The notes under the pieces: generated by a model | Seen by the model: the letters and a program-made list of their open reading frames with translations, nothing else | Databases searched by the model: none | What the model was told of the DNA's origin: nothing | From: a virus | DNA length: 21,634 bases | Reading direction: 5' to 3' (one strand) | Virus record (IMG/VR): IMGVR_UViG_3300035183_000600 | Coordinates: 1 to 21,634 of that record | Program-made: the position numbers and the translations under genes | Part shown: in pieces, positions 2,867 through 20,305 of the stretch | How the letters are laid out: the number at the start of each line of letters is the position of its first letter | How positions within the stretch are numbered: position 1 is the stretch's first letter

Positions 2867-5800
2867 AGTCTGCGCAACGCATTGATGCGACGTTGCTCGA
2901 TACGATCGATGAGCGCACGATCGCTGACGTGCACGTCGAGCTCGACATGCGAGTATGTGTCACGCCGACCGCGCAGCGATCGCTCGACTGCTGCACGCAG
3001 TGTGCGCAACTCTCCAATTACGCGATCGTCGGTAGCACTGCCCTGCATCAGCCGCTCCGCATATCTGCGCTCGATCACTCGCTCGATGTAGCGCTCCACC
3101 GGCTGCCCTGTGCGATTGATCCACTCGAGCATGTCGCGGTTGGCGCGCGTTGCCTGCGCAGTAATGATTGATTCGCCCTTAGAAACACGCACCAAAATTG
3201 AATCGCTCGTCTCTGTTCCTGGTCCCTCTATGCCTACAACGCCAGTGGCAAAACCGGCAATCTTAGCTCGAGCAGCCTCGAGCAGCGCAGTCACGAGTGC
3301 AATTGCACCGGTCGCCGCCGGAATGCCAAGCGGTCCAAGTAGCGCTGCAAACGCAGCATAAATCTGCGGGATATATGTCATGATAGCCATCTCCGCTTGC
3401 TTTAGTAGCGTGTCGAGGATACCGCGCGTAAACGCTTCGCCCGCGCTCATGCCGGCTGCGAGCATGGCACCGAAGGCGCTCGATGCCATGCCGAGTGAGA
3501 CTTCCGCATATTGCGAAATCGCGCCGATATTGACCTTGACAAGGTCGGTGATTGATTCGATATTCTTCGGTAAGATTTCCTCCGCAATCTTCTGAGCTTT
3601 AGATGCCAGCGATTTGTACATCGCCTCGGCGCTCTTGATGACCGTCTCCATCATCCGTCGCTGTGCTTCGCTGATTTGCTGCGCCTTCATTGCTTCGGCG
3701 TCGGCAAGCGCGGCGAGGGTCTTGTTTGCGCTCGCGCGTCCCTTGATGTAGTCATCCATGATCGCTTTGCGGTCCTGTGCAGCGCTTTGCTGCTGCGCCT
3801 TCGCGCGATCGTTGAGCGTGTTGAGCGCTGCCGCGAAAGCGTCGCTCTGACCGATGAGCGTCTCGATGAGCTGACGCACTGAGTCTTGCAGCGCTGCGCG
3901 GTAGATGTTTTCGAGCTTGAGCGAATCGTTCAGGTACTTCTGTTGCAAATCGAGCTTCGCTTGCTCGAATTTCTGCCGCGCAGCGAGCTGTTTGGTGAGC
4001 GATGCGCCAGCGGCTGCCAGCTCCTGCTCGTAGGTTTGCTTTGCGATTTCGAGAGCGCGGTTGTATTCGGCTTCAGCGATCTCGCTCACATTGCCGCTTG
4101 CGACGAGATCGAGTCGCAACTTGAGCTGCTGATCGTCGAGCTGCTTTTGCAGCGAGAGGAGCTGCCCTTCGAGCTTGGCTTTGTCGAGCTCGTCGGTCGT
4201 CACCGCGATCTTCGCTGTGAGACGATCGCGCTCTGCTTCGAGCGCGGCGATAATTTTCTTGCGCAGCTCTGCTGCTGCTTCTGGGTCGGCTGTGATGTCG
4301 AGCCGTGCTTGCAAGTTTTGCAACGCCTGCTCTCGCAGTTGGCGCAGCCGCTCCTCCTGCTCCTCCGCTTGCTTGCGCAGCAGCCGCTCTGCTTGCAGGG
4401 CAGCGTTGCTGGCATCTTGCTGGATTGCGGCGATGTCCTTGCGCAGAGTAGCCGCGTCCTTACGACTATCCGGTATCTTGATCTTCGCCGCTGCTTCGGC
4501 TGCCTCCTTGTGTATGGCTGCAATCGCCTGCGCGTCGGCGATCTCTTTATCGGCAGTCTTTGCGCGACCTTCGCGCAAGCGTTGCAATTCTTCTTCCTGC
4601 TGACGTTGTTTTTCGCGTTCGAGTTTCTCATCGCGGATGGCTTTGATTTGTTCGATCTGCTTTTTGAGCATATCATCTTCGCTTTGTGCGCGTTTTTTCG
4701 CTGACTCTTTGATCGCTTCGAGCCGCGCGAAGAGTTGATCCGCTTGCTTGGCATCGAGCTGCCCTGCCTGCTGCGCAGCTTCGATCTGTGCTTTGATTGC
4801 CGAGACTTGCTTGTTGAGCATCTCCTCGCTCTTCGGACGATTGCGCGCGAGGTCTTGCAATGCACGATTGATGCGGTCGTATGCACTGACCTCCTCTTGC
4901 GCAGCGGCTGTCACTGCCTTCTGCTGCTGCTGTGCAGCCTGCGTGCGCGATGTCAACAGCCGCTGTTGCGCAGAGATGAGCTGCTCTGCACGATTGCTGA
5001 TTTCGAGCAGGTCTTCCGAACTGATCCCACGCTTGAGAGCCTCGACGATCTGGCGCGCTTGCTGCTCGTTGTATCCATACGTCTTGCGAATAAATGCAAC
5101 GAGATTGTCCGCCTCCAAGACCGCAATAGATCGAAGCTGCGCGGCGAGCTGGTCGAAGGTTTCCGGCGTTGCTCTCGAAAGGTCTTGCGCTGCGCGCCTC
5201 AAAAGATCAGCCATCATTTGCGGTGCATTGATGCCACCCATGCTAATGCTGAATTTCGACCAGAACGTGTCCACGACTTCGAGCATCTTTTCCTGCGCGG
5301 ACTGCGCTTGCAGCTCGAGCAGTCGCTGTTGATTTTGCATCGCTTGTTTGTTGAGCGAGTCCAGCCGAGAGTTGAGTTTGACGAGTTCGTCGCCGGTGCG
5401 TGCGCTTTGCTCCTTGAGCACGGCGAGCGTTTCGGCGTAGCTCGATGTCGAGCTGATCAGCGAGGGATAGGTCTTGGTGACTTCTGCGTGCAGCGTCTTG
5501 AGTCGCTCTTGCTCGGCTGCTGTGCGATTGCTTTTTTCGGCAAGCGCGATGTATTCGTCAGCGAGCGCCTTCTTTGCTTCTTTCGCTTTGATCGTCTCGC
5601 GTGTTTCGTCTATCTGCTTCTGGATGAGCTGCTGCGTTGCTTCGGCGTTCTTGATTTTGTCCTCGGTGGTCTCGATGAGTAACGGCTTCAGCGCGTTGAA
5701 AGCCGCCACAGCAGCCATGATGCCGGCGATCGCAAGACCGAGCGGATTGGTCGCCCATGCAGCCTTGAGCGCATTCGTCGCAACAGTGGCTGCGTTGGTA

Positions 5801-9405: not shown

Positions 9406-10347
9406 TTACACGTTGAGACGGATGCCTTTGATGCAGAGCGCTGCGCGTGGCGAGAGATACGCCACTTGCACGTCGATCTCAATCTGCGTGACGTAAGCGG
9501 AGCCTTGCACACCGAGGTCTTTCACTTGCACGCCGACGTTCGTCGCGAGCGAGAGATCGGTCTTCTCGCCCCACCGCACAAGATAGATGGATGTGCAGTC
9601 TGTGCTCGTTCCGACTGTTTCGGTGTTGTCGATAACAAGTCCGCTCATGTCGCGGTTGAAGCCAGCATCAATGAGCGGAACTGTCTTGTATGTGCGTAGC
9701 GTGTTGAGCTGCGCATCATCGAATGCGCTTTGAACAGAGTCGTAACGCACATGCTCTTTTTCGATCATTTCGAGCCGACCGATAAAATCGCTGTTGGCAA
9801 TGATGCAATTGCATCCGGTGTAGATCATCTGCCGGCGGAGGAACTCGAGGAACGCCGCGATTTTTTTCTTGTCGTCAGCGGGGAACTCGCCACCGTTAGC
9901 GCCGCCGAACGTCACGCTCGGCGCAGTCGTTGCCAGACCGCGGAGATGACCCGCAGCACCATCGCCATTGACGAGATCGTTGACAAGTCCACGCGAGATC
10001 GCTGATGCCTCTTGCGCGAGCTGACGTGTCCGCTCGGTACCGAGATCGTCACCGCGCCGTGCGAATGCGATGTCCGTTGCGACTTTGCCGCCGTAGATGG
10101 CAAGGGAGAATGTGTCGGTGGTGGGGTTGGCAGTCGTCGTCGAGAAGTCGCTGCCGATATCTCGCGTGCCGCCCGCAGAGCCGCTACCAGCCATGTACGG
10201 AGCATCTGCGTTGCCACGCATAGTGTACCACTGCGCGACCGACCAGATTGCGTTTTCGGCGATCATGCGATCGATGACGTAGCGAGCGAGCGTCGGGTTG
10301 TATTGCCCTTGACCATCGTCGCGAATCAGCTCTTGGAGTAGTGCCAT
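9406..10347 (-). CDS. Major capsid protein (HK97-fold type)
   Basis: 313 aa. AGGAGG lies 7 bases before the ATG. The pattern fits an HK97-type capsid protein without a large cleaved prodomain: a short helical N-arm, a glycine-rich loop (AGSGSAGGTRDIG), an E-loop-like strand (TFSLAIYGGKVATDIAFARRG), a spine-helix region (ERTRQLAQEASAISRGLVNDLVNGDG) followed by HLRGL, and A-domain-like strands near the C-terminus (GSAYVTQIEIDVQVAYLSP). It follows the scaffold gene, as usual. I see no protease gene, so a delta-domain cleavage is not expected. Confidence 0.8.
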   Translation of the reverse strand: MALLQELIRDDGQGQYNPTLARYVIDRMIAENAIWSVAQWYTMRGNADAPYMAGSGSAGGTRDIGSDFSTTTANPTTDTFSLAIYGGKVATDIAFARRGDDLGTERTRQLAQEASAISRGLVNDLVNGDGAAGHLRGLATTAPSVTFGGANGGEFPADDKKKIAAFLEFLRRQMIYTGCNCIIANSDFIGRLEMIEKEHVRYDSVQSAFDDAQLNTLRTYKTVPLIDAGFNRDMSGLVIDNTETVGTSTDCTSIYLVRWGEKTDLSLATNVGVQVKDLGVQGSAYVTQIEIDVQVAYLSPRAALCIKGIRLNV

Positions 10348-10364: not shown

Positions 10365-10898
10365 TTAGTTCGTTTGCTGCGAGAATAGTTCAGCCACTTG
10401 ATCGCGGAGCGATTTTCGCGATTGTGAACGATCGCCCTCCGGCTTGGAAGGCGCATCAGAGCTTGCTTTCAGGGGAGTCAAGTTCTTCGATGCTTCGCTC
10501 GCCGCGTCGAAATCTTTTTCGAAGAGCGCTCGCCACTTTTCGATCAGCTCTTTGTTTTGCGCCGGCAAGCGACCTTCGGCAACGAGTTTTTCGACCGCCG
10601 CATCGATCTGTTTCTGCCGCTCTTGCTTTGCACGCTCTTCGAGCGCTTTCGCGGTGTTCTCCTCTCGCTCTTTGATGCGTGCAAGCTCGGCGAGCAGACG
10701 CTTGTTTTCTTCGCCGAGCGACCGTGCAACCCGCATCAGTTCTGCGATTGCGGACTGCACGTCGTTCGATTCCGGCTTTTTGCCGCCGAGCGATTCGAGC
10801 TCTGCTTCGAGCTGCGCGCGGAGCTGCTCGAGCTCCGCTTTGCGATCGTCGGGCGCTGTGCCGATGAGTTTATCCACGAGTGCGATGAGCGATTTCAT
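10365..10898 (-). CDS. Capsid scaffolding protein
   Basis: 177 aa, first gene of the leftward late operon. It is almost entirely charged helix: a coiled coil over about residues 15-105 (KAELEQLRAQLEAELESL, ENKRLLAELARIKEREE), then VEKLVAEGRLPAQNKELIEKW and a Ser/Lys-rich end. The GRLPAQ-type segment resembles the scaffold part of Mu-like protease/scaffold proteins (gpI/Z), but no protease domain precedes it. It is located immediately before the capsid gene. Spacing to a possible SD (AAGG) is about 9 bases. Confidence 0.78.
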   Translation of the reverse strand: MKSLIALVDKLIGTAPDDRKAELEQLRAQLEAELESLGGKKPESNDVQSAIAELMRVARSLGEENKRLLAELARIKEREENTAKALEERAKQERQKQIDAAVEKLVAEGRLPAQNKELIEKWRALFEKDFDAASEASKNLTPLKASSDAPSKPEGDRSQSRKSLRDQVAELFSQQTN

Positions 10899-10927
10899 GC
10901 AACAATGCCTTCGATTGTTCGCTGCGA

Positions 10928-10956
10928 AATTCAGCGAGCAGATCGCCCCCTGTCAA
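10928..10956 (-). promoter_or_regulatory. Candidate promoter for the leftward late operon
   Basis: Minus strand: a perfect TTGACA (10956-10951), 17 bases, then a poor -10 TGAATT (10933-10928). The weak -10 next to the operator/T-tract array just upstream fits a promoter needing an activator, as Mu late promoters need C. This is a prediction. Confidence 0.45.
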
Positions 10957-10964
10957 GCCCTGCG

Positions 10965-11044
10965 TGCAGATATGCGTATTTTTTTAGGGACTCCCTGCAG
11001 ATATGCGTATTTTTTTTGGCGAGTGTGCAGATATGCATGATTTC
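10965..11044. promoter_or_regulatory. Triple operator and T-tract array between the divergent late operons
   Basis: Three repeats begin TGCAGATATGC at 10965, 10996 and 11026, spaced 31 and 30 bp, close to three helical turns. The first two continue as GTATTTTTTT(T); the third diverges after the core. The core is nearly palindromic (TGCA-GATA-TGCR). A fourth core is in the early control region. This suggests a phage regulator bound on one face of phased, probably bent DNA. The rest of 10899-11160 holds no gene I can support. Confidence 0.75.
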
Positions 11045-11160
11045 TTCGTCGTGCGCTTGCACCGCCGATTGGCGACGCGCGAATTTTGCGTGCGGCAGTA
11101 TTGCATTATCATCAGAGATGCACTGCCCGGAAATCAAGCATTGATGCGGTTTTGACGGCG

Positions 11161-11511
11161 ATGACACTCCGCGATCTCGAAGACGATCTCGTGATGACGT
11201 TGCAATCGGCGCTGCCGACGATCAACGTCATGCATGGTCGCTATGGCGATCTCAACATCTCCACGCCGGCAGTGATGGTGTATTGTGAGCCTGCGGGCTT
11301 TCTGCGCGAAGACGGTCGCTACACATCTGCGCATGTGACGATTGCAGCATGCAGCGCCGAAGGAGATGCGACCGAAAGCAAGTTCGCATCGCTCGAACTT
11401 CTGGCTCAAGCGATGGCAGCGCTTCGCCCGCCAGCCCGCTCTGCGCCTGCGTTCGACGGCTACTACGACAACATCGCCGTCGCTCTTGTCGAATACACGT
11501 TGCCACTCTGA
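11161..11511 (+). CDS. Gp37/DUF1834-like tail terminator or completion protein
   Basis: 116 aa from the ATG at 11161; an upstream TTG (11086) would add an unlike, basic extension and is not preferred. The start MTLRDLEDDLVMTLQSAL followed by a strand TPAVMVYCEPAGF and a helix KFASLELLAQAMAAL resembles the small alpha/beta tail-terminator fold, and the opening resembles Mu gp37-type proteins. It is first in the rightward head operon and overlaps the next gene by one base (TGATG). There is no clear SD. The assignment is by weak pattern and context. Confidence 0.5.
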   Translation: MTLRDLEDDLVMTLQSALPTINVMHGRYGDLNISTPAVMVYCEPAGFLREDGRYTSAHVTIAACSAEGDATESKFASLELLAQAMAALRPPARSAPAFDGYYDNIAVALVEYTLPL

Positions 11512-11843: not shown

Positions 11844-12397
11844 TGACATCGGCTATCGAAGAAGCACTCGGACCGAAACCGCGAAAGAACCGGAAAGCCG
11901 CTCCACGCCTACGTTTGCGGGATCGGCTTCGCATCATCAAGTACTGGAACAAGCATCCGGAGCTCGGTCCAAGCGCGATTGCCGATCTGTTCGGCATCAC
12001 GCGATCGCAAGCCCGATGGATACTCAAGCTCGAACAGGAAGGCAAGCTGCAATCTGAGATCCCGGGCATGCGGCGAAGAGCAGTCAGCACAATCCAACTG
12101 AAGAAGATGACCAGAGAAATCGATCTCGATCAAGCGCTCGAAGAGCAGCTCCGCATGTGTCTTGCCGAGCTCTCGACTGTCTCGAGCATGCCGATGCTCG
12201 AACGGATCGATCGTCTTTCGCAACTGATGCAAGTACGCAAGACCCTGCTGCAAACCAAGCTCCAGAGCCACTTGCGGCGGATCGATGCCGATGTGATCGC
12301 AACCATCATCCGCAAGTACGATCCCGAAGCAAGCGACGAAGACGTCGTGAAAATCTACCGCGCAGCAATCGAAGAGTTGAAAGCGATGCAATCATGA
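11843..12397 (+). CDS. Putative small terminase subunit with helix-turn-helix
   Basis: 184 aa. A basic N-terminus (PRKNRKAAPRLRLRDRLRII) leads into a helix-turn-helix at about residues 30-62 (HPELGPSAIADLFGITRSQARWILKLE). A helical, probably oligomerising part follows (EEQLRMCLAELSTV, LSQLMQVRKTLLQTKL). DNA-binding N-terminal and oligomerising C-terminal parts, together with position two genes before the large terminase, fit a small terminase subunit. A late transcription activator (Mor/C role) is a real alternative, since no other activator gene is visible. It overlaps the endolysin start by 4 bp. Confidence 0.6.
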   Translation: MTSAIEEALGPKPRKNRKAAPRLRLRDRLRIIKYWNKHPELGPSAIADLFGITRSQARWILKLEQEGKLQSEIPGMRRRAVSTIQLKKMTREIDLDQALEEQLRMCLAELSTVSSMPMLERIDRLSQLMQVRKTLLQTKLQSHLRRIDADVIATIIRKYDPEASDEDVVKIYRAAIEELKAMQS

Positions 12398-12894
12398 TGA
12401 CGTTCGACCGCGCAGTCGAAATCATACTCGCGCTCGAAGGCGGGCGCAGCAATCATCCGCAGGACAGCGGTGGACTGACTGTTTTCGGTATCACCGCCGA
12501 GACTGCGCGGCGACATGGTTACAACGTCGAGCACCTCACACGCGAGCAGGCGATCGCGATCTACAAGATCGATTACTGGCAAGCGATGCGGTGCGACGAT
12601 CTGCCGTCGCGATGGCGCTTGCCTGCGTTCGACGCAGCAGTGCAACATGGCGTGCGCCGCGCGACGACGATGCTGCAGCAAGCCATCAAGACGAAAGCCG
12701 ATGGCATCATCGGACCGAAGACGCTGGAAGCGGCTCGCAATGCGGGTTTGGTGGCGATCGCACGCTTCTTCTCCTACCGCATAACGCTCTATTTCGACCA
12801 CCCAAAGCGGGCGTATTTCCTCGAAGGCTGGATGCGTCGGCTCGTCACAGTTGCGACGATGATGCACTATTACGAGGACGCTGTCGATGCATAG
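12394..12894 (+). CDS. Endolysin, GH108-type lysozyme
   Basis: 166 aa cytoplasmic muramidase with no signal peptide, so it needs a holin. The N-terminus has the GH108 signature: catalytic Glu15 in LALEGG, then DSGGLTVFGITAETAR and IYKIDYWQAMRCDDLP. The C-terminal half has FDAAVQHGVRRATTMLQQA and the peptidoglycan-binding motif DGIIGPKTLEAA. Mu gp22 is in the same family. Length is typical. The gene is wedged between the probable small and the large terminase genes, overlapping both (4 bp and 8 bp). Confidence 0.92.
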   Translation: MMTFDRAVEIILALEGGRSNHPQDSGGLTVFGITAETARRHGYNVEHLTREQAIAIYKIDYWQAMRCDDLPSRWRLPAFDAAVQHGVRRATTMLQQAIKTKADGIIGPKTLEAARNAGLVAIARFFSYRITLYFDHPKRAYFLEGWMRRLVTVATMMHYYEDAVDA

Positions 12895-14395
12895 CACGCT
12901 CGACATAGCGATGCAGCGCTTCGAGCAGCGTATGTCGTTCGCGCTGCCAGGACCGCCATTCGACGAGCGCGAGCGCTCGACTCGCAGCGAGCGATTGGAG
13001 CGTGCTGCTCGTGATTACTGGTATTTCGATCGTACCTACTTCCCCGCGGCTCTCTACCAGGACGGCTATAGCAAGCCTGCACGCTTCCATCGCGACCTTG
13101 TGCGCATTGCACAGCAACCGGGCATGCATATCATCATGGCGCCGCGCAAGCATGGCAAGACGGCAACGCTGAAGAAATACATGGTATGGGCATTGCTGCA
13201 CCGCGTGCAGTTTGCGGCGATCTACGCTGCGACGATCACGACGGCAAGCAACATCCTCGACGACATCGCTACGCTCATCCGCTACAACAGCCGCATTACT
13301 GCTGACTTCCAGCCGGAGATTGTCGAATGCAACAGCGAGCAGATGACGTTCGTTGCTGGCGGCAAGATGCGCCGCGTCATCGTCGCAAGCGAGGGTCGAT
13401 CGCTGCGCGGAGCGACGATGCAATTCGGACGCCCTGAACTGCTCCTTGTTGACGACATCGAAACGCGTGCATGCTCGTTATCGAGCGAAGCTGTACAATC
13501 GCGATACTACGCGCTCAAAGAAGCCTACGCATCGCTCTCTGCCGGAGGCACTGCGATCGTGCTCGGCAACAATTTCGACGAGCGCTGCTTACTCAATCAG
13601 CTTAAGTGTGCAGTGCTGCTTCCGGAAGGCTGGACGTTGCACGAATACAATGCGTGGAGCGGCTCTGGTCCGCTCTGGCGCTCGCGCTACCCAGCGTCGA
13701 GCGAAGCAGAGTTGCGCGCGATGCTCAAGGTGAGCGACGAGTCCGAGTGGCTCGCCGACTACCAGCAAGAGCCGGCACCACCGGAAGGAACAATCTTCCC
13801 GCGCGAGCATCTGGTCACCTACAGCGGCAAGCTGCCGAGCGATGCGCGTGGCGTGGTCTATTGCGATCCCAACCTTGCCAAGCGTGGGCGTGGCGACACG
13901 ACCGCAATGGTAGCGCTGCTCTACTCGCCGAGCACCGATCGCTACTACATCCCGGACGTACGATGCCGATCGTACTCGCAAGCATCGGAGCTGCTCGACG
14001 ATCTGCTCGCTTTGAGGCGCTACTCTCCAATTATCGGCTTTGATGGCAACGTTGCGCAAGAGTCGTTTTGGACACAACTAGTCCGCGACTGGTGTCGCAT
14101 TCGCGGCGAGTCGTATCCGGCGATCATCTATTGCAGGTACAAGGTTGACGAGCTCGCGAAAAATGCAAGTGTGCTCTGGTGCGACGAACGAATCATGATC
14201 AACGAGCAACTGCTCGCAAACGTAGAGGGGAAGCGCTTTCTGACGCAGGTACTCGCTTTTGCGGGCAAGCAATCGGGACGCCACGACGATGCCGCCGATG
14301 CGCTCATCTGCGCAATCGAGCTGCTACATGAGCGCAGACCTGCATCGCGCACACGTTACGCCACGAGTATCATCACCGACTACTACGCGCTATGA
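12887..14395 (+). CDS. terL: Terminase large subunit (ATPase and nuclease)
   Basis: 502 aa DNA packaging motor. The ATPase half has a Walker A-type loop at 85-92 (APRKHGKT), a motif around 111-120 and Walker B at 185-192 (LLLVDDIE). The RNase H-like nuclease half has acidic residues at D327 (VVYCDPNLAKRGRGDTT), D386 (IIGFDGN) and D467/D468 (RHDDAADAL), in the usual order. A Mu relative would package headful-wise from an adjacent chromosomal end. It starts within the last 8 bp of the endolysin gene and overlaps the portal start by 4 bp. It contains an internal end-motif copy at 14021-14033. Confidence 0.95.
   Translation: MHSTLDIAMQRFEQRMSFALPGPPFDERERSTRSERLERAARDYWYFDRTYFPAALYQDGYSKPARFHRDLVRIAQQPGMHIIMAPRKHGKTATLKKYMVWALLHRVQFAAIYAATITTASNILDDIATLIRYNSRITADFQPEIVECNSEQMTFVAGGKMRRVIVASEGRSLRGATMQFGRPELLLVDDIETRACSLSSEAVQSRYYALKEAYASLSAGGTAIVLGNNFDERCLLNQLKCAVLLPEGWTLHEYNAWSGSGPLWRSRYPASSEAELRAMLKVSDESEWLADYQQEPAPPEGTIFPREHLVTYSGKLPSDARGVVYCDPNLAKRGRGDTTAMVALLYSPSTDRYYIPDVRCRSYSQASELLDDLLALRRYSPIIGFDGNVAQESFWTQLVRDWCRIRGESYPAIIYCRYKVDELAKNASVLWCDERIMINEQLLANVEGKRFLTQVLAFAGKQSGRHDDAADALICAIELLHERRPASRTRYATSIITDYYAL
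14021..14033 (+). repeat. Internal copy of the end-site motif in terL
   Basis: TACTCTCCAATTA is identical over 13 bases to L2 and to the reverse complement of R2. It lies inside the nuclease-coding part, where it encodes YSPI. Confidence 0.5.
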
Positions 14396-15507
14396 TGTAC
14401 CCACAACTAAGCCAGTACAGACGCGCAGTCCAAGACGCGATCACCACCGATGATGACAAGCGCACGGTTGCGCAACTCTACGCATATCTGCGACTGTTCG
14501 AGCTGTTCTCGCCGCACATACGCGGACTAATCAATGTGCGCTCTACCGGTCTTGTCGCGCTCGACTGGATCATCAGCAATGAGGATGGCACCGTTGACGA
14601 GCGCACACAGACCGCACGCATCCTGCTCGGCAAGGCGATCGATACGATTCTTCGTCATGCATATCGGGTCGATCTCTACGGCGTGCTCGGTTTTGCGATC
14701 ATGTGGCAAAAGACTGCGATCGGCTGGAAGCCGCAACTGTCCTTGCTTCCAGCGGGGCGGCTCGAAGTGATGAGCGACGGAACGATCGCAATGCTGCCAT
14801 CGCGCTTGCGTGTACAGACAGACGACTACACCAAGATTGCCAGCGCCGACGCAGCAGCGACCAACGGCGGGATGATGATCTCGATCGGCTACCTCGAAAT
14901 CATGCGAGACGACATCTTGCGCGAATGGGCGAACTACAATCGCAAGCTCAAAGGATTGATACACGGCATCGATCGCGGCGCAAGCGAGCAAGAGCGGATG
15001 GCAGCAGAGCAGGCATTGCAACAAGCAATCCTGCACAACTACATGATCACGAGCGACCTCATTGACATCAAGCTCGATCAGCTCGCATCGAGCCAAGGCG
15101 CGCAGTCGTTCAGCGGGTTCCTCGATTACGTCAACCGCATGATCTCGATTGCGATCTGCGGTCAGGCGAACGTTAGCGATCTGCCGCAGCGAAGCGGATC
15201 GCGTGCTGCGCTCGTTGTGCAGCGCAGTATTACGCGCGACATCATCATGACCGACTCCGTCTATGCAGCGGACATGATTGGTCAGCTCATCGCGCATTAC
15301 TCGCGTCTCAACTTCGGTGGCGATCGTGGGCTGACGTTCGCATTCGACTACTCATTCGACGACGACGCCGAGACCGCATCGGTGGTGATTCGCAACGCGC
15401 TTCAAAGCGGCATCCCGCTTCGTCGCGATGAGGTCTATCGGCGGCTCGGTTACACGCAGCCGCAGGAAGGAGACGACGTCATCACTGCACTAACGCCGAC
15501 GTTCTGA
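14392..15507 (+). CDS. Portal protein, Mu gp29 (DUF935) type
   Basis: 371 aa dodecameric portal. Features of the DUF935 portal family are present: an N-terminal helical region (IRGLINVRSTGLVALDWIISNED), where Mu-type portals have 'R...V....W.I'. After it come a helix AIDTILRHAYRVDLYGVLGFAIMWQ, a strand region WKPQLSLLPAGRLEV, and a long helical crown-like part (residues about 180-290) ending in an acidic strand segment AFDYSFDDDAE. It is a little shorter than typical DUF935 portals (450-500 aa). It lies directly after terL with a 4-bp overlap. An operator-like word occurs at 14481-14492. Confidence 0.85.
   Translation: MMYPQLSQYRRAVQDAITTDDDKRTVAQLYAYLRLFELFSPHIRGLINVRSTGLVALDWIISNEDGTVDERTQTARILLGKAIDTILRHAYRVDLYGVLGFAIMWQKTAIGWKPQLSLLPAGRLEVMSDGTIAMLPSRLRVQTDDYTKIASADAAATNGGMMISIGYLEIMRDDILREWANYNRKLKGLIHGIDRGASEQERMAAEQALQQAILHNYMITSDLIDIKLDQLASSQGAQSFSGFLDYVNRMISIAICGQANVSDLPQRSGSRAALVVQRSITRDIIMTDSVYAADMIGQLIAHYSRLNFGGDRGLTFAFDYSFDDDAETASVVIRNALQSGIPLRRDEVYRRLGYTQPQEGDDVITALTPTF
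14481..14492. promoter_or_regulatory. Operator-like site in the portal gene
   Basis: CGCATATCTGCG is the same 12-mer as at 3058-3069 and fits the shared operator consensus. It is in coding sequence without a visible promoter. Confidence 0.3.
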
Positions 15508-16046
15508 TGCGCACGCTGCTCGCCAAATTCGCTCCAATAGCGCTCGGCATGATCACCGAGCAGATCGAGCAAGGCATTGACATCGAGGGCAAGCGCTATC
15601 GCTATTCGGCGAAGCCGTTCTCCGCGCCGGCAGGGTCGCTGCTCAAATTCGCACGACTTGCACTCGCACGCAATCGCGAGTTACATTACTTTCGCGCAGC
15701 AAGCGGTGGACTGTGGGTCGTCGTCACTGGCGGATATGCGTCGTATCGCAGAGCTGCACGGCGGCTCGATACGGGGGACTATCTCACGTTCAGCGGCAAG
15801 CTAATGAGCTCGATGGTCTATCAGTACGACGATCAGCGCATCACGATCAAGTTTGCAACGCCCAAACAAGCAGCGATCGCCTACTACCTCAACATCAGCG
15901 GCGCCGGCAAGGGACGGCGCTTGTGGCGATTTCTGGGACTGACCAAGCGCAACCTCGAACGGCTCGCAGATATGATGAGTGCGGAGTTGACGCGAGGAGA
16001 TTTTGCTGGCACGATCGCCGAGCGACTGCGCAAATCTGCGCGTTAG
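15507..16046 (+). CDS. Virion morphogenesis protein, Mu gpG / tail completion S-like
   Basis: 179 aa, last gene of the rightward late operon. IDIEGKRYRYSAKPFS near the N-terminus is the 'D.dGk.y..l....' strand of gpG-like virion morphogenesis proteins. After the 'GKLMSSMVYQYDDQRITIKFATPKQAAIAYYLN' middle, the RRLWRFLGLTKRNLERLADMM motif corresponds to the family's '(R)PfLGls..d...i' ending. Members help join heads and tails. It starts on the portal stop (TGATG). Its TAG and the repressor TAA overlap face to face in TTAG (16043-16046), so the two transcripts converge with no terminator between them. Confidence 0.75.
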   Translation: MRTLLAKFAPIALGMITEQIEQGIDIEGKRYRYSAKPFSAPAGSLLKFARLALARNRELHYFRAASGGLWVVVTGGYASYRRAARRLDTGDYLTFSGKLMSSMVYQYDDQRITIKFATPKQAAIAYYLNISGAGKGRRLWRFLGLTKRNLERLADMMSAELTRGDFAGTIAERLRKSAR

Positions 16047-16642
16047 AGCTGGCGATAGATGCGAGCGATCACGATGCCGATGATCTCGATCTCAGCCGCG
16101 CGAACGAGCATTGACGCGGTTTGCGGGTTGTCGGCGTCGAGCTTGATCGTCTTGCGATCGGCTGCGCGCAATCGGCGGAGCATGATCCATCCATCGTGGC
16201 GGACAACGTAGATCGCGCCGTCGCTGAGCTGCTCGCCAGCGTGGTATCGCCTGACCAAGACGAGATCGCCGCTCTCGATCGTCGGCGCCATCGAATCCCC
16301 CGAAACCCGCATCACAACTGCGTTTCGCGGCGATATGCTATCGAGCAACGCGCGGGGAATAGGCATGAGCGATTCAACGTGATCGTCGCCAGCGATTGAC
16401 TTGCCAGCACCAACCGGCTGCAACAGAAGAGGGACATGCACAACGTCGGTACTCTCCAATTGCAACGCCCGCCTCGCCGCTGCAATCCACGTTGCATCCG
16501 CATACCCGCGCGCACGCCATCGCGAAATCGTCTTGCGAGAGACATGCAACTCTGGCGGAAGTCGCTCGATGAGATCAACATCGGTTGTAACGCCAGCCGC
16601 TCGGAGCAATTCATCGAGCGCTGGCAACGGTCGCTTGCGCAT
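16043..16642 (-). CDS. LexA/CI-type phage repressor with altered S24 catalytic dyad
   Basis: 199 aa. An N-terminal DNA-binding part (about 1-62) has VSRKTISRWRARGY as recognition region. The C-terminal S24 domain has the cleavage-site-like GAGKS (Ala79-Gly80) and the nucleophile Ser117 in RVSGDSMAPTIESGDLVLV. It also has the strand DGWIMLRRLR, where LexA-type proteins have VKRL: the catalytic Lys is Arg156 (CGC, 16177-16175). Autocleavage should therefore be lost or much reduced. It is transcribed away from the transposase gene. Operator-like sites lie over its start codon (16638-16649) and at 16682-16693, suggesting autoregulation. The Mu repressor c belongs to a different family. Confidence 0.9.
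   Translation of the reverse strand: MRKRPLPALDELLRAAGVTTDVDLIERLPPELHVSRKTISRWRARGYADATWIAAARRALQLESTDVVHVPLLLQPVGAGKSIAGDDHVESLMPIPRALLDSISPRNAVVMRVSGDSMAPTIESGDLVLVRRYHAGEQLSDGAIYVVRHDGWIMLRRLRAADRKTIKLDADNPQTASMLVRAAEIEIIGIVIARIYRQL
16450..16461 (+). repeat. Internal copy of the end-site motif in the repressor gene
   Basis: TACTCTCCAATT matches L2 over 12 bases; the thirteenth base differs. It is in left-end orientation and about 290 bp from the early promoter. Confidence 0.42.
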
Positions 16643-16649
16643 ATGTGCA
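16638..16649. promoter_or_regulatory. Operator-like site at the repressor start codon
   Basis: CGCATATGTGCA, inside the near-palindrome TGCGCATATGTGCA (16636-16649), covers the repressor ATG at 16642-16640. It shares GCATATGTGCA with the site at 20825-20836. Confidence 0.55.
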
Positions 16650-16681
16650 TAGCCGAGGATTGCACGCGCAGCAAAGTTACG

Positions 16682-16693
16682 TGCAGATATGCA
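16682..16693. promoter_or_regulatory. Operator in the early control region
   Basis: TGCAGATATGCA, extended by G and C to GTGCA-GATA-TGCAC. It is identical to the core of the third late-region repeat. It lies just downstream of the probable repressor start of transcription and about 48 bp upstream of the early -35 box. Binding by the repressor is inferred. Confidence 0.65.
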
Positions 16694-16708: not shown

Positions 16709-16731
16709 ATTCTACCGACAAAAAATTTTTT
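16709..16731 (-). promoter_or_regulatory. Possible repressor promoter with A6T6 tract
   Basis: Minus strand TAGAAT (16714-16709) matches five of six -10 bases. No good -35 precedes it; instead there is a perfect A6T6 block (16720-16731), which often bends DNA or acts as an upstream element. Start of transcription would be near 16702. Confidence 0.4.
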
Positions 16732-16740
16732 GCGGGACTC

Positions 16741-16787
16741 TTGACACAAAAAGGGACATTGTGTATATTCGCGCCCAGTTGTGTCCC
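16741..16787 (+). promoter_or_regulatory. Early promoter with TTGTGT/ACACAA sites
   Basis: TTGACA (16741-16746), exactly 17 bases, then TATATT (16764-16769): a near-consensus sigma-70 promoter reading into the transposase. Over it lie ACACAA (16744-16749) and TTGTGT at 16759-16764 and 16779-16784 (20 bp apart), plus GGGACA (16753-16758) paired with TGTCCC (16782-16787). These look like a second operator type, distinct from the YGCATATSTGCR sites. Confidence 0.8.
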
Positions 16788-19543: not shown

Positions 19544-20024
19544 GGTGACTGCGCTCGATCCTGCTGAGCACCTATATGAATACGCGCAACTCGATGCTGA
19601 AAAACGTAAGATCGAGGCAAAGATGGATGCAGAGATCGCGCAAATTCGTGAGAAGTACGCGGACCGACTACTCAAGCTCGATCGCCGTCTCGAAGAACTT
19701 TTCGACGGGATGCTGATCTGGGCGGAGGCAAATCAGCATCTTTTCGAGGGCAAGCGATCGCTCGACTATCCGCATGGGGTGGTTGGTTACCGGCTCGGTA
19801 ATCCCGCTGTGCGCTTACAACGCGGCATGACGACCGACAAGGTGATCGCACTCGCACGCGAGATCGCACCGGACCTTGTAGCGATCAAAGAGTCGCTCAA
19901 CAAGGACCTCATCATCGATCGCCGCGACGATCTTGCACGCGAGGGCATCCTCGATCGGCTCAAAATTCAGATCGTGCAAGAGGACCGCTTCTATGTTCAA
20001 CCCAAGACGGAGGAAACCACATGA
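19527..20024 (+). CDS. gam: Gam-like DNA-end-binding host nuclease inhibitor
   Basis: 165 aa. Mu Gam, a Ku-like dimer, coats DNA ends and blocks exonucleases. Family features: N-terminal helix pair with KKR-type charges (LDAEKRKIEAKMDAEIAQIREKY), the strand pair RSLDYPHGVVGYRLGNPAVRL, and a helical C-terminal part (ALAREIAPDLVAIKESLNKDLI) ending in the strand QEDRFYVQP. The 'RSL....G..G.R.G.P' motif is diagnostic. Length is close to Mu Gam (174 aa). SD TGGAG precedes the ATG. It overlaps the zinc-ribbon gene by ATGA. Confidence 0.93.
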   Translation: MRKSTKVTALDPAEHLYEYAQLDAEKRKIEAKMDAEIAQIREKYADRLLKLDRRLEELFDGMLIWAEANQHLFEGKRSLDYPHGVVGYRLGNPAVRLQRGMTTDKVIALAREIAPDLVAIKESLNKDLIIDRRDDLAREGILDRLKIQIVQEDRFYVQPKTEETT

Positions 20025-20305
20025 AGTGTCCCTTCTGCGGAACAGTCAATACGCTGCGCATCTTTCGCACCTACCGCAACCGCAAGTACTACAAAGGCTG
20101 GTTGCGCGCAGATTGCGACACGCGATTGACGCAATGCAGCTCTTGCAAGAGGATTGTGATCACCGTTACCACAGTGGATGATGGAGCAACTCGTCAATTT
20201 CTTGCGAGCGGCGGAGGAGCTGATGTTGCAGCTCTTGCGTCAGCGAGCGAGCAGTCAGGAGATCGAGCGCCAACTCCGCCGTTTGGCGAGGAGGATGGGG
20301 ATTGA
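20021..20305 (+). CDS. Small zinc-ribbon protein
   Basis: 94 aa. A CPFC (residues 3-6) and a CSSC (39-42) form a four-cysteine zinc-ribbon around a basic middle (RTYRNRKYYKGW). The pattern occurs in small phage DNA- or RNA-binding regulators (Com-like). In Mu, Com is a zinc-binding translational activator of mom; no mom gene is visible here. SD GGAGG precedes the ATG. The C-terminal 40 residues are low in structure and are encoded by a 128-bp overlap with the next gene in another frame, so the true C-terminus may simply be unconstrained. Confidence 0.75.
   Translation: MKCPFCGTVNTLRIFRTYRNRKYYKGWLRADCDTRLTQCSSCKRIVITVTTVDDGATRQFLASGGGADVAALASASEQSGDRAPTPPFGEEDGD

Follow-up and report, generated by a model that had tools for sequence, protein, structure and literature searches.

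What does a regular array of short repeats do between two sets of late genes that are read away from each other? The window, i.e., the whole stretch of DNA that was analyzed, is a 21634-base virus record of an uncultivated Mu-like phage. The array lies in its divergent gap at 10899-11160, with the scaffold, capsid and tail genes on the minus strand on one side and the terminase and portal genes on the plus strand on the other. The genes that define the gap and the two operons are:

9406..10347, minus strand: major capsid (head) protein (PHROG 212, E 8e-23)
10365..10898, minus strand: scaffold / head-maturation-protease-like gene, first of the minus late operon (PHROG 976, E 5e-4; found in the same place in relatives)
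11161..11511, plus strand: gene with which the plus late operon begins
12887..14395, plus strand: terminase large subunit (PHROG 38, E 4.8e-55)
14392..15507, plus strand: Mu-type portal protein (PF06074, Portal_Mu, E 1.7e-29)

Judged from its Mu-type portal, its Mu Gam protein (PF07352, E 7.9e-25) and a DDE transposase, the phage is classified as a Mu-like transposable phage. The putative transposase gave no family match with its own sequence; its relative in locus L068 matches rve and a PHROG transposase. An S24 repressor (16043-16642) was identified by family match. In addition, a glycosyl hydrolase 108 endolysin-like gene is located within the terminase operon (12157-12894).

Three operator-like sites in the late gap

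TGCAGATATGC occurs in the array three times without mismatch, at 10965-10975, 10996-11006 and 11026-11036 (plus strand), separated from start to start by 31 and then 30 bp, as an earlier sequence-only reading had described. A 15-mer search allowing up to three mismatches found seven sites in the window where 0.50 would be expected, and none of 100 shuffles reached seven; the array of three cores is far beyond chance in the window. The first two copies share 90% identity over 29 nt; between copies 1 and 3 it is 69%. The same reading had reported seven to eight T after two of the three cores, and these runs are present as T7 and T8, which are two of the four A/T runs of at least seven in the entire window; copy 3 is followed by ATTTCTT only. 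The predicted operators, whose dyad frame was taken from relatives, and their T tracts (by run count) are as follows, a slash marking the dyad centre:

10965..10984, plus strand: predicted operator O1, TGCAGATATGC core, dyad ATATGC/GTAT, centre 10975.5
10979..10985, plus strand: T7 tract after O1
10996..11015, plus strand: predicted operator O2, dyad centre 11006.5, 78 bp to each predicted -7 box
11010..11017, plus strand: T8 tract after O2
11026..11045, plus strand: predicted operator O3, right half degenerate, dyad centre 11036.5

The centres of T7 and T8 are 31.5 bp apart, exactly three turns at 10.5 bp per turn, and copies 1 and 2 are in good helical phase (-17 degrees). The proposed period of nearly three helical turns describes these two units, but copy 3 drifts out of phase (-51 degrees to copy 2 and -69 degrees to copy 1). 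The palindrome GCANATATGC, which had been the first candidate operator, was dropped as it is not conserved among relatives.

Promoters on both sides of the array were predicted with a matrix trained on the -7 boxes of the relatives:

10925..10932, minus strand: GAATTTCG, best minus box and predicted -7 box for the scaffold/capsid operon, 47 bp from the O1 dyad, predicted start ~10920
11081..11088, plus strand: GAATTTTG, best plus box if the O1 T tract is left out and predicted -7 box for the terminase/portal operon, 48 bp from the O3 dyad, predicted start ~11093
10928..10956, minus strand: TTGACA (10956-10951), N17, TGAATT (10933-10928), found by sequence and overlapping the predicted promoter of the scaffold/capsid operon

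A TTGACA with a poor -10 had been noted beside the array, and this pair does occur on the minus strand with TGAATT 17 bp on, however, boxes of the TAnnTTTG type describe the promoters better. A sigma-70 scan of the window region returned no promoters and left the TTGACA/TGAATT pair unscored. The window boxes GAATTTCG and GAATTTTG are weak, do not have the TAnnTTTG consensus and are 156 bp apart, compared to 70-72 bp in relatives, and the top-scoring box pair of the window takes the O1 T tract as its plus box. The dyad of O2 is the exact midpoint of the two predicted boxes. If transcription starts 8.5 bp beyond the box centre, the outer dyads would be positioned at about -55.5 and -56.5. When the motif matrix of the relatives was applied to the window, O1 and O2 ranked joint 102nd and O3 563rd of 21617 places.

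The late gap in related phages

Relatives were collected by terminase searches, which gave loci L068-L070, L071-L072 and L073-L075 and then 14 matching genomes among the 391 of the class to which the Kapaibacterium genome carrying L072 belongs, so that the set comprises 24 loci besides the window. Among viral contigs, the repressor query mostly returned S24-domain matches of other phages and no close relatives, and neither the capsid nor the transposase query returned any relatives. A paired-motif scan of the viral contigs yielded 17 stretches, none of them a close relative by protein comparison, with weak protein matches to the MuF-like gene in L054, L060, L062 and L064 and to the repressor in L065.

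Scaffold and terminase genes diverge around a gap containing a palindrome or quasi-palindrome in 20 of the 24 terminase-found relatives; the remaining loci were excluded from the gap analysis because the structural genes are co-directional (L073), the match is weak and partial (L075) or no scaffold was found (L107 and L109). The terminases of L068-L074 share about 37-50% identity with that of the window (29% over part of the protein in L075), indicating that the likeness of the intergenic regions does not stem from recent descent. In L073 (264-13243), capsid, terminase and portal genes all point in one direction, suggesting that the divergent late promoter was lost or moved. The contig of L071 is labelled Candidatus Hydrogenedentota, and as the terminase occurs in one of 68 genomes of that class, this contig is possibly misbinned.

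The gaps of the relatives contain TAnnTTTG-like boxes that face outward and flank a central dyad. In PMC9723704, TAnnTTTG is given as the -7 box of the flavobacterial sigma-A, extending from -12 to -5, and TAnnTTGY as a known variant that is one base shorter. Pairs of TAnnTTTGC boxes scoring at least 11 of 14 had a spacing of 72 bp in 10 of the 19 relatives compared (L099 not being part of these counts), compared to a maximum of five at any separation in 200 shuffles; with a looser threshold (10 of 14) the signal was weak (14 of 19 at 68-80 bp, shuffle mean 12.0). Using the box matrix with leave-one-out and free separation, the best pair was 70-72 bp apart in 11 of 20 relatives (L068, L069, L070, L071, L072, L074, L094, L095, L096, L104 and L108). 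The training boxes had been seeded at separations of 70-72, which favours this range, and the controls are the leave-one-out procedure and the shuffles of the 72-bp test. The dyad lies within 0.5 bp of the box-pair midpoint in 11 of 20. In L099, L100, L103 and L105, a box pair at 70-73 bp ranked second to seventh with weaker boxes, and in five (L097, L098, L101, L102 and L106) the script found no clear dyad-centred pair; the automatic rank-1 pairs of L097 (69 bp) and L106 (73 bp) are off-centre from the dyad and were not counted. Separations of 69-71 seen by eye in L097, L099, L102, L105 and L106 are outside the script counts. With starts placed as above, the dyads of the relatives would lie at about -44.5 from each start.

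Two-fold symmetry was also apparent across phages. Complementarity plotted by dyad offset gave a single peak at offset 0 in 11 phages (62 of 110, next 45), and with four more phages offset 0 reached 86 of 150 (next 66). Aligning 13 phages by the box midpoint alone resulted in TAnATGC/GCATnTA. L102 has a perfect 18-bp palindrome, and a GCATTA-GCGG-TAATGC dyad was recognized by eye in L099. One host genome, G358, carries three related prophages (L097, L105 and L106) with different dyads (TTGTAC and TGCAC types), and thus offers a natural test of operator specificity. Of the 20 relatives, 13 carry a run of at least five T beside the dyad towards the terminase and three carry one on the opposite side, suggesting that the unit of operator plus T tract is a feature of the family. 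Inspection of the 20 divergent gaps revealed no second site. Three phased sites occur in the window phage only, and phasing is therefore not the rule of the family. The suggestion of activator-dependent late transcription in both directions is supported insofar as relatives keep a site midway between divergent promoter-like boxes, but not in its sigma-70 TTGACA/-10 form.

A proposed shared late operator and its candidate regulator

The single symmetrical site midway between two promoters in relatives makes the array look like a virus-assembly on-switch in triplicate. We favour, with somewhat more confidence than doubt, that it represents a shared activator operator for the divergent late promoters which has been tandemly multiplied, and that the likely regulator is a zinc-ribbon protein encoded near the end of the record:

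20021..20305, plus strand: zinc-ribbon protein of 94 aa (C-x2-C...C-x2-C) and candidate late activator, overlapping the start of the MuF-like gene

A phage regulator would bind the dyads between the back-to-back late promoters and recruit RNA polymerase to each of them, and the scaffold/capsid/tail and terminase/portal operons would thereby be switched on together. In the relatives, a single dyad midway between the -7 boxes would serve both promoters; in the window phage, a unit of site plus T tract of about 30 bp may have been tandemly multiplied, leading to three sites three helical turns apart. The regulator itself would be expressed from the last part of the early operon. Against this reading count the non-consensus boxes of the window and their wide separation, the low ranks of O1-O3 under the motif matrix of the relatives, the five relatives without a clear dyad-centred pair and, as regards the regulator, the lack of a family match for the window protein and the marginal covariation of operator and zinc ribbon.

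The protein at 20021-20305 is the most likely regulator of the late operator. A C-x2-C...C-x2-C gene is located upstream of MuF in all 15 phages in which MuF was located, including the window, and the proteins have 69-99 aa where complete (that of L098 overruns the edge of the fetched sequence). The NrdR zinc ribbon (PF22811) scored above the cut-off in two of 14 complete proteins (L097 and L102) and near it in L108 and L073; the window protein reached E 0.11 and had no zinc-ribbon family match above the cut-off. A profile of 14 zinc-ribbon sequences compared with solved structures gave NrdR as all of its best five matches (E 4e-6 to 5e-5), and a search of the zinc-ribbon proteins for an ATP-cone domain gave no match. 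The structure predicted for the window protein has low confidence (mean pLDDT 62); a fold search with it gave no matches at E of 0.001 or below, and among the 50 listed an NrdR chain ranked sixth (E 2.4) with the highest probability (0.69). With terminase distance removed, operator distance and zinc-ribbon distance were marginally correlated (partial Mantel r 0.26, p 0.047, n=11). In genomes G358 and G039, the listed NrdR-ribbon matches above the cut-off are short frames only (88-97 aa), one per genome and within the studied prophage, and no full-length NrdR was above the cut-off among the matches listed.

The window holds further copies of the core in the gap between repressor and transposase:

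16682..16692, plus strand: fourth exact TGCAGATATGC, adjoining a TAACTTTG box (minus strand) at 16672-16679
16639..16649, minus strand: TGCACATATGC, one mismatch, over the repressor start codon and inverted relative to 16682

The stretch 16639-16692 hence appears as two inverted TGCA[GC]ATATGC sites, one of which covers the repressor start codon. The same gap has an A6T6 tract beside GGGAC/GTCCC repeats (16718-16770), and these repeats overlap an early promoter-like TTGACA-N17-TATATT.

The early copies could mean either that this phage's late regulator turns off the repressor as well or that the repressor binds both regions. In the latter case the phage's own S24 (LexA/CI-like) repressor of lysogeny would use the sites as its operators, silence the late promoters in the prophage and autoregulate at 16639-16692. 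In favour of this, the fourth exact and the one-mismatch copy lie in the repressor/transposase gap, and the copy at 16682 is in a repressor-like position, 12 bp from the TAACTTTG box of the repressor gene. However, in the 12 relatives tested the repressor/transposase gap had no operator repeat beyond marginal half-site matches, and elsewhere in the available sequence of the relatives the operator is restricted to the late gap. In addition, a site at about -44 and halfway between two divergent promoters has the position of a class II activator, and the extra copies would be explained equally well by a regulator that turns the late genes on and the repressor off. We therefore regard operators of the S24 repressor as rather unlikely.

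The T tracts in helical register in the window, and their conservation on one side in relatives, would also fit a host nucleoid protein or global regulator that recognizes T tracts and kinkable AT-rich dyads. But the dyads differ strongly between phages, even among the three prophages of the single host genome G358, which fits a phage-encoded partner better and makes a host protein improbable. Direct repeats of regular spacing next to the terminase operon might instead be iterons, packaging sites or transposase sites without a role in promoter control. The Mu packaging and transposase sites are located at the genome ends, whereas this array is in the middle of the record, and the single site of the relatives has a spacing tied to promoter-like boxes on both sides, so that this explanation is given very little weight. 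Least of all do we believe in an intrinsic terminator made up of palindrome and T tract. A hairpin followed by T is possible in some relatives (L098, z -3.3; L102, z -2.1; L069, z -1.9), but the units of the window (z 0.26, 0.15 and -0.38) and likewise those of L070, L071, L074 and L108 fold no better than shuffles. Also, no upstream gene on that strand requires a terminator, and it was rejected for the window since there is no stable GC hairpin with T run and a terminator scan of the region found none.

If the array is indeed a multiplied activator operator, these phages provide a sequence rule for late promoters in uncultivated Mu-like phages, i.e., a dyad with a one-sided T tract that is flanked by two TAnnTTTG-type boxes at a distance of about 72 bp from each other, together with a named and testable candidate activator. 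The tripled array would further illustrate how an operator may multiply yet keep its symmetry. A more far-reaching version, which we offer tentatively and with more doubt than belief, is that in little-described transposable phages of Bacteroidota-type hosts the late genes are governed by one two-fold symmetric divergent promoter, with a domesticated NrdR-type zinc ribbon lacking the ATP-cone as activator. Here, the operator would have been tripled at three-turn spacing, thereby re-creating the paired-box rule of NrdR and forming a cooperative bent late enhancer, and the activator may also switch off the lysogenic repressor. The part of the literature that was covered yielded no earlier account of late control of this kind in these phages, Kapabacteria prophages included.

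Likeness to NrdR, Mu and P2 control

The proposed control connects three systems that had been regarded separately, namely Mu-like genomes, shared late operators of the P2 type and zinc ribbons of the NrdR type. NrdR tetramers depend on a pair of palindromic boxes separated by a whole number of helical turns, in most cases three (PMC12051234, PMC9110341). Taken as a profile, the family of the candidate regulator resembles the DNA-binding zinc ribbon of NrdR, and the paired boxes of NrdR are, like the sites of the window array, about three turns apart from centre to centre, a correspondence in spacing that is suggestive only. However, the phage proteins are short and have no ATP-cone match, NrdR represses, the other phages have a single site, and the 30 bp between O2 and O3 are at the edge of the NrdR spacing range.

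At the Mu promoter Pm, the Mor dyad is centred at -43.5 (PMC4287176), which is near the predicted -44.5 of the relatives, and an activator is needed there as well. In contrast, a homologue of Mor/C (PF08765) above the cut-off was found in none of 15 genomes or records, and the Mor site at Pm serves a single promoter rather than a divergent pair.

In the PO/PP region of P2, controlled by Ogr (and by Delta of P4), one activator site is located midway between the divergent scaffold/capsid and terminase/portal promoters, as in the relatives. Such a shared midway site is clear in 11 of the 20 relatives and applies to the window by the midpoint only, as its boxes are weak. P2 Ogr is a small zinc-binding activator, which is also what is proposed here. 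Ogr and Delta sites have the form TGT-N12-ACA; arms of this form occur in L097, L105 and L108 only and are absent from the window. Ogr itself weakly matches the NrdR ribbon (E 0.007). Its comparison with the zinc-ribbon profile by hhalign gave P 9e-4 at a probability of only 23%, and the zinc-ribbon protein of L101 matched Ogr_Delta at E 0.05 only. Ogr_Delta (PF04606) was found in none of 16 genomes or records, placing the candidate activator outside this family, and the system is therefore not classed as an Ogr system. It also differs from P2 in that the phage is Mu-like and transposable, with Bacteroidota-type boxes and three sites, and in that the dyads of the relatives would be centred near -44.5. 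In the P2 annotation, the one activator site (3057-3087, centre 3072) is at -56 from the minus-strand start (3016) and at -55 from the plus-strand start (3127), which is about the distance predicted for the outer sites of the window.
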